Part shown: positions 48,701-57,700 of the stretch, in pieces
Layout: every line of letters begins with the position of its first letter
Position numbering within the stretch: the first letter of the stretch is position 1
Assembly: GCF_011397635.1 (NCBI RefSeq)
Contig: NC_064754.1
Coordinates: 34,898,043-34,962,042, forward strand
Reading direction: 5' to 3'
Length of the DNA stretch: 64,000 nt
From: Epinephelus fuscoguttatus
Taxonomy: Eukaryota > Chordata > Actinopteri > Perciformes > Serranidae
The notes under the pieces: model-generated
Told to the model about the DNA's origin: nothing
Databases searched by the model: none
Seen by the model: the letters and a program-made list of their open reading frames with translations, nothing else
Made by a program: the position numbers and the translations under genes

Positions 48701-51700
48701 AGTCTGAGGTCTGAGGTTTTTGCTCACAGGAATTACCTTTACATACATTTAATTCATTATCTGAAACTTAAGTGATGTTTAATATGAACCCCTGACAGAA
48801 AATAAGGAAAGCCTATTAGATTGCCATTGATGTGTAGCCACTGTTCTGTGTTAATATTGTGTGTTTGTTGTGTTTTGCTACATGTTTTCTTCAAAATAGG
48901 CCTACCTGTTTAAATGGATGACTAAAAAAAAAAAAAATTAGTGAGCCACATTAGCACTGGTCTTCCACTTTGGATTAGATTCATCAGATCTGGTATGAGA
49001 CTCGTTCTCACACTTACCACAGTCATTCAGCTTCCTCTTCAGCTCGTCTCTCTCTTCAGTCAAGGAACTCTGCTGTGAAGCTGCCATTTTGAGTAGAGAG
49101 GTTACAATGATTTTCAGAAGAATCAGAGCATGTCCACAACAAATCACTATATGACAGAATTCACATTCTTCATCAATGTTTTAGTGACAGGTATAGTTTG
49201 TTTGATATTTGTCAACACAAACCACTCTGTCACACAGAAATAAACCTGCAAGCATCTAGGTGACCGGGTCTTGGGCCATGGGGCCCTGTCGGGCTCAGCC
49301 CAAATGAATAACATGGGGCCGCCACCCTGTGGGCCTACCACCTGCAGGGACTGGCATTGGTGTCAGGTGCATTTTGTGCTGGGCGGCAGGCAGGGGCGGG
49401 GCCCCAGGCATGCTGATCCCAGGCATCGTGGACTGGCTCTGCGGACGTGGAATGTCAATTCTCTGGTGGGGAAAGAGCCGAAGCTGGTGCGGGAGGTGAA
49501 GCGGTACCAACTAGATATAGCTGGGCTCACCTCCACACACAGCACTGGTTCTGGAGCTAAACTCCTGGAGAGGGGCAGAAGTCCCGCTTTTTCTGGAGTT
49601 GCACAGGGTGAGAGGTGTTGGACAATTGTGGGGATACTCACAAGCCCCTGGCTGAGCACCACTGTGTTGAGTTTCACCTCGGAGGACAAGAGGGTTGCCT
49701 TGATGTGACTGTGGGTCGCTAAGAGAAGGTCTCTGACTATTGTTTGTGCGTATACACCGAACAGCAGTGCGGAGTACCTGGCCTCCTTGGAGTCTCTGGG
49801 CGGTGTCCTGGTGGGGCTGCCGACTGGGTACTCCATAGTTCTTCTGGAGGACTTTAATGTTCATGTGGGCAATGACGGAGAAACAGACAGGTACTGTTTG
49901 GCCAGAAGGGCTGCAGCTGTGGCGGTTGCTGAAGCAAAAACCTGGATGTGCAAGGAGTTTGGGGAGGCTATGGAGAAGGACTTTTGGTTGGCCTCAAGGA
50001 AGTTCTCGCAGACCGTTTGATGCCTCAGGAAGGGAAAGCAGGGCTTGTCTCAGGCTGTGCTCAACAGAGAAGGATCCCTCGGGGGGTCTTGTGGGGGGTA
50101 CTGCAGGATTAGGGGGTACTGGGCTCACTGCTATGAGCCATCAGGTCCCTGTATGACCAAAGTGAGAGATGTGTCCACATACTCGGCATAGAGTCAAACA
50201 TGTTCTTAGTGAGTGTTGGCCTTGGCTTGTTCCCTTGTCACTGATCGTGTTTGTGATTTTCATAGACAGGATCTCGAGGCGCAGCCAGGGGGAGGAAGGG
50301 GTCTGGTTTGAGGACCTCAGAACTGCATCTCTGCTTTTCGCAGATGATGTGGTTCAGTTGGCTCCATCACACCGTGACCTCCAGCATGCACTGGGGTGGT
50401 TTGCAGCCGAGTGTGAAGCAGTCAGGATGAGAGTCAGCACCTCCAAATCTGAGGCCATGGTTCTCTGTTGGAAACCGTTGGATTGCCCTCTCCGGGTTGG
50501 GGGAGAGTTAGTGCCTCAAGCGAGGGGGTTCAAGTATATCTACGTCTTATTCACGGGTAAGTGCAGAATGGAGCATGAGATGGATCGGCAGTTTGGTGCA
50601 GCTTCTGCAGTGATGCAGTCGTTGCACCGGTCCATTGTAGTGAAGAGGGAGCTGAGCCGGAAGACAAATCTTTCAATTTACTGGTCCACCGATGTCCCAA
50701 CCCTCACCTATGGTCATGAGCTCTGGGTAATGACAGAAAGATTGAGATCGCGGATACAAGCAGCCGAAATGAGTTTCCTCTGTGGGGTGGCTGGGCTCAG
50801 CCTCAGAGATAGGATGAGGAGCTTGGACATCCAGAGGGAACTTGGAGTAGAGCCACTGCTCCTTTGTGTCGAAAGGGGTCAGTTGAGGTGGTTTGGGCAT
50901 CTGATCATGATGCCACCTGGGCACCTCCAGCTGGAGGTGTTTCGGGTACGTCCCACTGGTAGGAAGCCCCGGGTCAGACCCAGGACATGCTGGAGGGATT
51001 ACATATCCCATCTGGCCTGGGAACACCTTGAGGTCTCCCAGGAGGAGCAGGAAGGAGTTGCTGGGGAGAGGGATTTCTAGGGTGCTTTGCTCGGCCTGAT
51101 GCCCCCGCGACCCGGCCTTGTAGTGGAGCAGATTGCTGAAACGATCTTTCACTTAGTGATGCAAGCACCAAATTTGGCACACAAGTGCTTCAGAACCTAC
51201 TTTCTCAGAAAAGTACGATGTCCACTTAAAAAAACAAAATGGCTGCCATTTTTCAAGATGGCTGCCATTCGAAGTGGTATTAAATGGTGTTTGAACTATA
51301 TATTTGATTGAATAATCCTATTTTGATGATCTATACATCAAAATATATGTTTTTGAGTATGAGAAATCCAATTCTGCATTTAGACAATCAAAATTATTGA
51401 ATATTATGATGATAAAATGGAAATTAAACGAAGAAACACTCTCTGATGTTTCTGATGTGATGTCTCGGTACGTGACCACCAAATGTAGAGTCATGATAGG
51501 ACAGTAAACTGCTTATTGCATTTCAACAGTGCTAGAAGATGTAGTATGGCTTATCTGGGGTTGACCAGTGTATTAGAAATATGATGACACTTTTCCCACA
51601 GGGTTATGTTAACTTCAATTACAAACAATGTGAACAAACTGATTGGCTTGTGTGCTTTTTTTTTTTTCTTTTCTTTTTTTTGGCCCGCCACCACCCCCCC

Positions 51701-54700
51701 TCTATGGACAACTTTATTGACCTGCCACCACCCCCCCTCCACGGAGGACAACTTTATTTGACCTGCCACCACCACCCCTCTGTGGAGGACAACTTTATTT
51801 GGCCTGCCACCACACCCCCTCTATGTACAGCTTTGATTGGTTCTTCTTTTAGTCCTCACATTTGCAGGCACACAACTGTGTACACTTCAGGATGAAGCGA
51901 TAGCATTTGCATTGTCCTCGGCATTCAGTCTTGCAGCTGAATTTTGTCAACTGCTCACAAGTCTGAGCAATGGGTGGAAAGGTTGTCCAGAGAACTTGCC
52001 AGACCTCGCCATCTTTTTGACAGCCCCAGTTGGCAGGGCTTTCAGTTTGCATTTCGCACACTGTTGCCTGGCCCCATATGAAGGCAGCTTGAAAGGCAGA
52101 CCGTTTCACATGCTGAACGAGGGATGCGCTTGTCGGTGGAATATGGCATCATAAGACCTTTGCTTCCGAGCAAACAAGTCCAGCCTTGCCTCATCGACCT
52201 TGCTTGTTGTGCTGTGCTTGTCATACATGGTGATGACAAACCTCTCAAGGATGATGAGGTCTGCATCTGCTATAATGGGTTGATATTGACTAAGCTTTTT
52301 AAAGACAGGGCTCACTTCAGGGCAGACCTCCCGTGCTTGCCATGCAGTTTTCTTGCCTTTACCACGAAAAGCTGACACAACATCACAGCCAGTAAAGGCG
52401 TAAAAAAATAGCATGCCACTGGATTTCTCTGGGCCAAGATTCACCACTATATCATGGATTGGTAACCACCTAATGGACTGACCCTGGCCAAATTCTACCC
52501 AAATAATTTCTAAGCCTGCATCCTGAAGAGTCCCAAAAACACTGACTGCAACAACAAGAATATCTGTGTCGCATGCCTTAATCAACACAGACTTCATCTG
52601 TTGCTTGGCTGCATGAAGAGCAAGTGTGAAGATTCTGCAGTCAGCTTCTTCGTGGTTGCAGGGACTTAAGCCTTCAAGTCTGATGAGTTTGTTTGAAAGA
52701 GCCTGCTCTCCTTTGGTCACAACTACAACATTGTTGGGACACAGAGTCACTATCTTGTCAGCTAGGAACCCGAAGAGCTCAGTCTTGTTGTCGCTGTCTC
52801 GCAGGAAGCTTTTCCAGTTGGGTGGTAGTTTGGTTTTGTCTGTCACTCTCCGTCGATCTCCCTTACCTCTGTTTGACCTTGTTTCAGCCTTCAAGCTTGA
52901 AGTCCAGTAGACATCAAAAACGATGTCTGTTCGCTTATATTTAGATGAGTATGTCTGGATCTTTGGAACTACATCTTGGACAGCATATTCCTCAAAGGTC
53001 TTTGATGTCTTTGGAGACAATGAATTCACAAGAGTGGAACCATCAATGATAATAGCATCACATTCTGGTTGTTTGTCAGGAGGAGAAATGGTAGCTTCCA
53101 GAATTTTTGCAAGCTGAGACTTCTGACCAGAGTGGAGTTTCCCTGTGTTGCTCAGTGCTGCAGGGAAAGACTAATTCTCATGCTTGAAGAACTCAACCAT
53201 GTCTCTGAGGTGGATGGGTAGCCATCGAGCATAGTTCACATTGTTGTTTGCAAAGAAGAAGGTGATTAGAGCAGACAGTGCTTGACAATACAAGTTGAAG
53301 TTAGCCTCTCTGAAAGATCTGACCAACGAGAAAACCACCAGTGTCTCAGTGTCTCACACCATTCATTGAAATTCAGGGCTCCTTCATTCTCCTCTGCACA
53401 ATGATGCTCATATGCTTCCTTTCGGAGCATGTAGAGACAGCATGCTGTAACTTGGTGCATGTGGCGTGTTCTTGTGACACTTGAGGCAGAAAGAAAGGAG
53501 TCAGCTGTTCCAGAAGAAGCCACCCCAGCCTCCACAAGAGCATCTGTCCACCCACTACTCTGAAGCAGGGTCCCAAGTGATCTGAATGCAGCCATCTCTA
53601 TGTGGAGACCGCCAAACATTACAACAGATTTGTCCTCACCATACAGGTCAGGCCAGTGCCACTGGACTTGTTTGGCAAGAGCATAAATAAGCTGGTCTGC
53701 AGTTATCACGGGAACCTGGTCTGGGTTGAGGTGTGCAATAGCATCCCTGACTTTGTTCATTGAATGCCTCACTGTGGCAACAGAATGGGCTTCATCACGA
53801 AGAAGGGGCAAGAGTGAGGTAATGCTCACTTCAAATTCAAGACCTCGCTTCTTCTCTGTGTGGTGGGCTGACCAAGTGATGTTAACCTCATCATCTACTT
53901 CTTGTGTGAGGCTGACCTTCTGCAGCCATTCATATTCATTTGTCAGGGGGAGACTTGGCAGAGATGCATATGTAACATTGTCCTTGGGAGGAGATGGATT
54001 CTTTTTTGTGAAGAAAGCAGGATGGACATTTGTGTAGGAATCAAGAAGTTCCGGGACTTTCTTTACACTGCTGTTTTTAGTTAACTGGATTGGTTCTCGA
54101 ACTTTGCCTTGATTTTCTGATGTTGTATGCTGGAAGATGGAGATGCTGCTTCCATGAAATGATGAAGTCGCAGTTGTAGATGAAGGATTATGATTGATGT
54201 TGGTCCATCGCACTTGTGCAGAAGAGGCCTTTCCTCAGTTTGGGGGGACAAACCACACCTTCTTCAATGTATCTGTTGACAACTGCATCTCCCAACTGAG
54301 CTGATATGTCAAGTACTCGATCATATGGAATACTAAGACCATGGTCGTGAAGCATTTCCACAAGGTGCCTCTTTCTGGTCTTAGCATGAACAGACATGCC
54401 TATGTAGACCAGAAATGGGGTTTCTCTCTCTCTGGAATGCCTTTGTGTGGCAGCACCTTCTTTGTACTTGGCAAAGCAGTTGTATAGGAGCTGAGCCACT
54501 GCCAGGTCAGTTGTAGTTGCTCCAAACCTCAGCTGAGATTTTATGTCTGCCCCATGCTCAATCATACAGACAAACTGAAGCAAAGCTGGTGGCAAGGAAT
54601 CATACACTGAACTCTCGTTGAGATGGCCCTCAAACTTATACTTGTGTTCGACCATGTGCGTGCGCAATATCTTAGCAGCTTTGGCAAGAATAATGGCATC

Positions 54701-57700
54701 AGTATAGGATGCTGCTTCTGATAAGACTGGACCAACGTCTTTTTCAAATGCCAGAAGTATATCTCGCCCTTTCTTGTAGGCTACCAGTCCAGGTATCTCA
54801 GCCAAAAGCCTCTCTTTCAGTCGGGTTGAGTTCACTTCAGGTATGTCTGTCCCAAACTGCTCAAGTCTCTCCCTGTAGAGACTAACCAATTCAGCAAGTT
54901 GGAACACAGCGGGCTCATCACTTTTATTTTTGTCTCAATGACATAGGTCAGAAGTTCAGAGAACACCAAAGGAGAGGCTTCCTTTTCTTGAGACGACTGA
55001 AGTTTTTCTTTGTTCTCCGCTGCAATCTGTGCCCTCTCTTAACAGGGCTGTTAAGCAAGGGAGGAGGTATTTAAGTTCCAGGGCCACCACATCTCCCCCA
55101 CTCAATAAAGCCAGACGCTTACCATCATTAAGATTACGAGCGCATTCATTGAGCCTCTCATTTAGATGCATGGTCATGGCTTGTCGCAGCTCTGATGTTG
55201 GTTCCATCTCTTCACATAAGAAACACCGCTGCACTTCAATGCTAGTCCTTTGCAATTTTGAGTGTCCTTCACCAGGATCATTCTGAATTTCAGCTCCTCT
55301 TTTAGTGGCACGCTCAAGTTTGCAGTTGTTAAACATTTGGCGACATTTTGGGTGATACTTTGCACTGTTTCGCCTCAATGTATCCTCAATACCACCTCCA
55401 TCATCCAATCTGGATGGGTTTACCTTGATGGGCAACTTGTTGATTGCCTGAAATTGTGGTATGGTTTTGGCTATCGTCGAATAGCCATCAGAACTACACT
55501 CATAACGGGTAGGGGGAGAGATCAACTCCTCTTTCGTATCTGTCTGACAGAGGCAACACTTCCTCCAGTCAGTTTTAGTAGCGCAACTTAGTGGATTATT
55601 GGCAGACATCTTGTGTTATACAGTTATAGGTTGAGGGTTTATCCTTTTACCACCCAGCTGTACAAAACATTAAAGCACATTGAAATATGGGATGCAACTA
55701 GGTTCAAGCATCTGGTGCCCTACACCTAGCCCAATCGTTCATCCAGTGCCATTTAAGTCCCGTGCGATCTGTACACCATCCAGGGAACTGAAGCCCTGTT
55801 ACCCTTGGCTCGGCTCTCCCGCACTGGCACATCCTGTCAATTCAGGTGCGGCTATCTAACTACAATACTACAACTAACTAAACTTCTAGTTGAGATATAT
55901 AGAGGGGCTTATTAGATAGCATTTGGGACACTAAAGTATACTACAAACTGCAGTGAGTACACCACTACAACAGTTAGTAAACTACAACTACAGTTAGTAC
56001 ACAACAAGCCAACACTGAACCCCATGCTGAGTCTCACAGCAATGATGTCACCAGTGTGCCCTGGTTGTACTTTGAAATCACTCTTATAAAAAAATACAAA
56101 CCAATAGAGCTTGACCACAGCATTTAAGTGAATGATCATGGATATTTCCCTTCAACTTAATGCAATGTCTGTGATCGGACAACTTCCGAAAATGCTAATT
56201 TTGAGTCACGTTATAGCCGCCATCTTGAAAACTGGTGGCCATATTGGAATTCAGTTGACACTATTGAGTTCTTCAAGTCATACATTCATTTTGATGTTTG
56301 GATCATTAATACATTTCTGTTCATTCAAGTTCTACTTCAAAAACCATTTTTTTTTGCATTTGACGAGGCGGCCATCTTGAAAACTGGTGGCCATCTTGGA
56401 TTTTCAGCTGGACATCGTACTTTTCTTAAATAGCACATCCTGGACATCATTTGTGCCAAATTTGGTGCTTGCATCATCAAGTGAAAGATTCTGATGGAAT
56501 ATTGACTTAATCTGCCCCACTATTGGATAAGCAGATGAAAATGAATGGATGGTTGGATGGATGGATGGATGGATGGATGGATGGATGAAAATTGTGACTT
56601 GGATTTATTTTTACTTTTATATTAAATATGAATGATGAATTAAAACCTGGAATGTCACATACTCTGTAAAGTATTGTCACCCCAACTGACGTCACCAGTT
56701 ATTCTGCAATTATGCACGATATGTAAGTTTTTTTATTTCCTTATCATACTCACCAAAGTTACTCAACTTCCTCTTCAACTCATCCCTCTCTTCAGTCAGG
56801 ATTTTATAATTCTCCTCAGTACCTAGTGGAGAGGTTATCATCACTTACAACAGAATGTTCACAACTAAAGAGAAAGTTTACTTTCAAACGGAATGTCCAC
56901 ATTAAAATGATCTATTAATGACAGGTAGTCGTTAAAGATACAGTTTGTAACTGTCACGACATCCACACAGAAGTAGATAAAACACATGATCTAGTCAGGT
57001 TTCTCCTCATGGTGCTTCTGAGGGCATTTGTTAGAATCTAATGTGGCTCACAGAAAACAACCAATCAGAGCCGAGGAGTTTCCAACGCAGCTGTCTATCA
57101 TGTCAATCACTGCTCGTGATCTACAGTCAAACTGTCGATGCATGACCGCAGTTATGAATCAAGATTCTCTCACTGCATTGCCTATTTCTTGCCACAAATG
57201 TTTTTCATAAGTTTTAGTGGACTGTTTAGCTGTAAAAAAATAAATTTGCTCCAGCTCCTGGGCTGTGCTTTGTTTTCAGCTCAACTGTTTCCAGTCACTT
57301 TCTCATTTTACAGTTAAACACTGCACTAAATATGTTTCTGAGGTGATTCTTATTTGATCCGCACTGCTTAGCTGGAAAGTTTGACAACATCTCACCAGTC
57401 ATGATTGGCATGATTGACAGCTGTGTTAGAGACTCCTCGGCTCTGAGTGGTTGTTTTCATTTACCCTGTGGAGGCTGTTAGAGCAGCATATTCATACCCA
57501 TGGTTTTAGAGTGAGATGCCCAACAATAACTTACAGGTGAAATTAATAACAGTTGATCATCATAACAGTCCTCTTGGCAGAAGATTTAACTGGGATTATT
57601 CTGGTAACACTTGCAACACTGTATTATATGCACAGTATTGGATCCATTAAATCCAGATTATTGGAGTAGTTTCATCATCGTACTTACGAAGGTTGATGCT

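Follow-up and report, generated by a model that had tools for sequence, protein, structure and literature searches.

Introduction

Academ DNA transposons, a known but not much studied kind, were reportedly first described by Kapitonov and Jurka, and the AcademX lineage is said to have been named by Kojima. The nuclease of AcademX is XPG; other elements are thought to rely on host enzymes for repair after integration. The present report concerns a 5,402-bp element at positions 51121..56522 of a 64-kb stretch of Epinephelus fuscoguttatus DNA (NC_064754.1, positions 34,898,043 to 34,962,042; hereafter the window, to which plain coordinates refer), which we read, with a probability of about 0.83, as a defective, AcademX-like DNA transposon of the cut-and-paste type whose family protein combines Cys/His clusters, a DDE transposase core, an XPG/FEN nuclease and a Cys-rich tail. 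A preliminary description of the same DNA had noticed a transposon with terminal inverted repeats (TIRs) and an XPG/FEN-like nuclease in a single coding region and, seeing no recognised transposase, had suggested a distinct lineage.

In the portions of the published accounts cited here, AcademX makes target-site duplications of 3 or 4 bp and AcademH of 9 or 10 bp, and these are tied to the encoded nuclease and helicase (PMC10045372); Academ is included among the superfamilies with a DDD/E transposase (PMC9587614) and is listed for zebrafish, medaka and stickleback (PMC4746887). P elements, likewise from a portion of the source, make 8-bp duplications and have unequal 5' and 3' spacing (9 and 21 bp) together with subterminal inverted repeats (PMC7776569).

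Results

Boundaries of the element and its target site

The region 51121..56522 is a DNA transposon, a broken copy with its gene on the minus strand. The left tip starts at 51121 and the right tip finishes at 56522, the tip sequence TAGTGG-GCAGATT being present, inverted, at both ends; the flanks (...CCTTG and TTGGA...) form an exact 3-bp duplication, TTG, at 51118..51120 and 56523..56525. The inverted similarity of the ends runs for about 255 bp (local score 204, compared with a maximum of 50 in 200 shuffles of the left arm), far exceeding the tips described before. The left TIR (51121..51372, plus strand) lies on the 3' side of the gene and carries a conserved ATCTTTCACTT box near its tip; in the right TIR (56263..56522, minus strand), on the 5' side, the same box (ATCTTTCACTT) stands 10 bp deeper.

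The clean interruption of the target that had been claimed was borne out by a 37-base pattern that joins both flanks across one TTG and occurs uninterrupted at 4 sites in the genome searched (1.05 Gb in 26 contigs), the reversed control giving 0. Each of the 4 sites has 2 mismatches, the maximum allowed; 2 of them read TTG and 2 read CTG. Since uninterrupted target sites occur elsewhere, the element inserted into repeated, LINE-like (long interspersed nuclear element) sequence. An open reading frame (ORF) with a reverse-transcriptase FADD motif (50169..51080, plus strand) represents the interrupted target, which we take, following the preliminary naming, to be LINE/RTE.

Copies of the element in the genome

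The first 880 bp of the element gave at least 42 DNA matches (40 of 43 candidates scored), some to the internal repeat only, and a tip pattern with variable spacer matched at 11 genome places, with none for the reversed control. The scan for tips took in 17 sequences, namely the window and loci L009-L024 (L001-L008, which overlap some of these, were left out), and an element was counted as two-ended where the sequence retrieved contained a pair of opposite tips that matched with at most 3 mismatches. Both ends were found in 6 of the 17 (the window copy, L011, L012, L013, L014 and L015), and all 6 are flanked by exact 3-bp duplications (TTG, TTA, ATA, TCA, TGG and AAT); the other 11, such as L009, L016 and L022 with one tip each, had no matching tip pair and stand outside the duplication count. 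L011 measures 5.4 kb and L012 6.2 kb; L013-L015, at 2.8-3.0 kb, are related to these two and have been shortened internally. The preliminary description had proposed such a survey of copies for TIRs and duplications, and had named copies lacking them, or a single-copy host gene, as the outcome that would count against a transposon; the outcome favours the transposon.

Protein queries reached further. The L012 protein gave at least 63 genome matches (best 50 of 268 candidates scored) and that of the distant L057 at least 50 (best 42 of 282 candidates scored), counts which are lower bounds and in which one copy may yield several matches. Relatives were not confirmed in viral contigs scanned with the L012 protein or in prokaryote contigs scanned with FEN1. 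The nearest sister among the copies found, L009 (contig C15), shares 93-97% identity with the window copy in the main blocks of their alignment; open frames resembling a LINE reverse transcriptase lie within its nuclease part (L009:4753-6537, minus strand), so that insertions nest in the element family.

Between lineages, three comparisons of the window copy with L011 and L012 gave proportions of synonymous differences (pS) of 0.69-0.77 and of nonsynonymous differences (pN) of 0.17-0.25, and L057 compared with L044 gave pS 0.83 and pN 0.28; three comparisons of recent copies gave pS and pN about equal, both 0.01-0.03. This pattern is what an active family that leaves dead copies behind usually shows. 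The family is diverse and multi-lineage, and is not a host gene.

The broken gene of the window copy

The single coding region reported before is not present: the gene lies on the minus strand in six pieces spread over three frames. The N-terminal piece (54959..55615) contains the Cys/His clusters, seen in the preliminary description also, which from their Cys/His pattern are putative DNA-binding zinc fingers. The second piece (54191..54934) reaches to the first-Asp motif (SAMD), and the third (53269..54234), which follows that motif, carries the second Asp (ITADQ) and the GGLH motif of a DDE-like core, as judged from the alignment of relatives and the model. The fourth piece (53174..53353) is the end of the helical insertion and runs into an internal deletion of about 640 bp relative to L009, whose junction is at 53195..53203 and whose lost part contained the third acidic motif; relatives have DQxxEQxN there, with D, E and N kept in 12 of 12 aligned rows. 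Then follow the nuclease domain (52109..53170, 354 open codons) and, in a different frame, a C-terminal Cys-rich cluster (51852..52148). The frame breaks and the loss of about 640 bp with the third acidic motif make the window copy appear transposase-less, and by its reading frames this copy cannot make a full transposase. Judging by the distance that the pieces cover, a complete family protein would have about 1,400-1,500 residues.

The nuclease domain and the transposase core

The motifs VFDVY, HEEAD, DTDILV and TGCD-GKGKK stand in the order claimed for them, on the minus strand within 52109-53170, and the acidic residues of the domain are D43, D86, E174, E175, D177, D201, D203 and D263. The model of this C-terminal nuclease (predicted local distance difference test score, pLDDT, 84) folds like EXO1/FEN1/XPG, and upon VIA re-alignment 50/50 among the matches listed belonged to that superfamily, in agreement with the preliminary assignment. 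The fold and the ordered acidic active-site motifs match the XPG/FEN superfamily, with weaker support from sequence profiles; modelling gives strong support for a fold of the EXO1/FEN1/XPG type. The likeness extends to the EAD, which the EXO1 sequence taken for comparison also has, whereas the element differs in having the nuclease as an internal domain within a transposase, in lacking an MGI N-terminus and in having no Pfam XPG_I match.

A transposase had not been recognised earlier; relatives nevertheless retain, after the Cys/His clusters and ahead of the nuclease, a conserved DDE-like core, with D/D/E columns in an alignment for which the parts of the protein were aligned separately. In six relatives (L012, L042, L044, L055, L056 and L057) the nuclease shares one open frame with part or all of the core, L057 being the only locus with all three acidic motifs plus the nuclease in a single frame. 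In the L057 model a DDE core of RNase H-like fold, which includes a helical insertion, is predicted; its best match upon VIA structural re-alignment was the P element transposase, with further matches to ISCth4, Hermes, Transib, RAG1 and integrases. Residues 114-411 of an L046 ORF, roughly from the second Asp to the third acid, exceed the curated cut-off of Pfam DUF6589 (PF20231), a family listed as of unknown function and whose name was not found in the literature searched. When the window pieces and the relatives were searched by sequence against Pfam, NCBIfam and PDB, no nuclease or transposase other than DUF6589 was named, and Pfam scans of the same sequences showed no helicase. Modelling predicts a DDE core of RNase H fold in the middle of the protein, with weaker support than that for the nuclease fold. 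The second catalytic Asp is replaced by Asn in L062:278-1300 and L044:3619-3957, and from this change these two copies are likely dead.

Architecture of the ends

In 6/6 two-ended elements the conserved box has its TTCA 27 bases from the tip on the gene 3' side and 36-37 bases on the 5' side; the offset is 9 bp in five elements (L011-L015) and 10 bp in the window copy, and the ends of L011-L015 are nearly identical, so that the six elements represent two lineages. Clusters of a subterminal AARATGGCNNCC motif lie at 51236..51266 and 56367..56397. There are 5 such motifs in the window copy and in L011 and 4 in each of L012-L015, all at 116-155 bp from an end, compared with 3 in the remaining 58,598 bp of the window; the motif, which was spotted first and counted afterwards, resembles a YY1 site.

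Palindromes of the AARATGGCNNCC motif also occur in distant lineages, TATGGCGGCCATTTTGAAA at L055:6081-6118 (arms 95% complementary) and GGCGGCCATCTTGGA at L058:871-902 (arms 100% complementary), which suggests that conservation of the motif extends past the two lineages whose ends are mapped; the ends of L055-L058 were not found by inverted-repeat search. Two AARATGGCNNCC clusters 150 bp apart lie next to one tip at L022:6979-7148, perhaps a doubled end. In L019, two right-hand tips that point the same way (L019:309 and L019:3009), with identical 25-base outer flanks, lie 2.7 kb apart and represent perhaps a duplication of an element end plus flank.

Discussion

Placement of the element

The element shares with AcademX, as described, TIRs, the short duplication (exactly 3 bp in 6/6 two-ended elements, where 3 or 4 bp are published), the encoding of a nuclease with a transposase (core parts in one frame with it at 6 loci), a DDD/E transposase of RNase H fold (by the model, the VIA rows and the D/D/E columns, Foldseek alone not being significant) and the occurrence of Academ in teleosts. 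From these likenesses we infer AcademX-like membership; since the published features of 3 or 4 bp duplications and a nuclease fit, the distinct lineage proposed earlier is not needed. AcademH, of the same superfamily under the published scheme, differs by its helicase and its 9 or 10 bp duplications, neither of which was found here (3-bp duplications; no helicase in the Pfam scans). The less expected features are the P-element-like core, the 9-10 bp offset of the inner box and the paired subterminal ATGGC motifs; the portion of the AcademX description cited above does not mention unequal end spacing or ATGGC pairs.

Several points weigh against this placement. The hhalign probability to FEN/EXO1 was 6.5%, and the EEAD block is two residues off the proposed EAE-to-EAD pairing. 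The element is absent from 7 genome matches to Pfam XPG_I at E <= 10, a search in which remote members can be missed, and Pfam gave no more than weak chance matches on the window pieces. Foldseek alone found no PDB match to the transposase model at E <= 0.001, its top rows being unrelated; the DDE matches appear in the VIA re-alignment only, and the modelled L057 is a distant relative, whose identity in the alignment is 23% with L011 and 19% with the window copy. Academ proteins entered the comparison by published description only, the wording of which, in the part cited, says only nuclease (PMC10045372), and no paper joining Academ with XPG was found in the literature searched.

The preliminary suggestion, a distinct and undescribed superfamily of TIR elements that have no DDE transposase and move by their XPG nuclease, would account for the absence of a complete DDE triad from the window copy, and for the fact that neither Pfam on the window pieces nor Foldseek alone on the relative's model names a transposase. 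It now appears very improbable, as relatives that share the ends and the protein retain a conserved DDE-like core that re-aligns best with P element, ISCth4, Hermes, Transib, RAG1 and integrases, and the gap in the window copy is a deletion relative to L009. That the element belongs to the P element superfamily and has gained an XPG domain is improbable as well: P element transposase is the best structural match, and the unequal end spacing and subterminal inverted repeats are alike, whereas P elements make 8-bp duplications in the source cited (PMC7776569), compared with 3 bp in 6/6 elements here, and the Pfam scans found DUF6589, which covers the core region of L046, and neither THAP nor a P element family. 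P element/THAP9 proteins differ also by their THAP finger. To our knowledge no XPG nuclease occurs in them. The conserved acidic residues and the low pN/pS between lineages might have suited a host gene of domesticated origin, or an arrangement due to chance; this is already refuted by the many copies at different sites, each two-ended copy with its own duplication, and runs counter to the frame-broken copies and the near equality of pS and pN between recent ones.

A probable mechanism

An AcademX-like element of this composition would probably move as follows. Binding to DNA, at the TIRs and at the subterminal ATGGC pairs, would fall to the Cys/His parts, and the two unlike ends, with inner boxes offset by 9-10 bp, would become paired. 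The DDE core would cut the ends and join them to the target at points staggered by 3 bp, whence the 3-bp duplication; the XPG part would then trim 5' flaps or overhangs at the ends or new junctions, leading to gap filling and sealing, or alternatively might trim excised 5' ends or process the donor gap. The 3-bp outcome is observed, and the remaining steps are modelled upon domain content, P elements and FEN nucleases. We would put forward, tentatively and with the odds against it, that Academ-type transposases are P-element/RAG-like recombinases which pair unlike ends and whose own FEN/EXO1-type nuclease finishes the junctions, DUF6589 being the domain of these transposases. As part of the same speculative proposal, the 9-10 bp box offset, about one helical turn, could be analogous to the 9/21 spacing of P elements and the 12/23 spacing of recombination signal sequences.

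The deletion of the third acidic motif explains how an XPG-bearing transposon can appear transposase-less, and the finding connects Academ elements, Pfam DUF6589 and P-element-like DDE cores. A fusion of transposase and flap nuclease makes transposon-borne repair after integration testable.

An internal repeat

A 41-bp minisatellite of 3.8 copies, rich in CCACCACCCCCCCTCT, lies at 51675-51823 in the 3' part of the element, and short stretches resembling it match other genome places.
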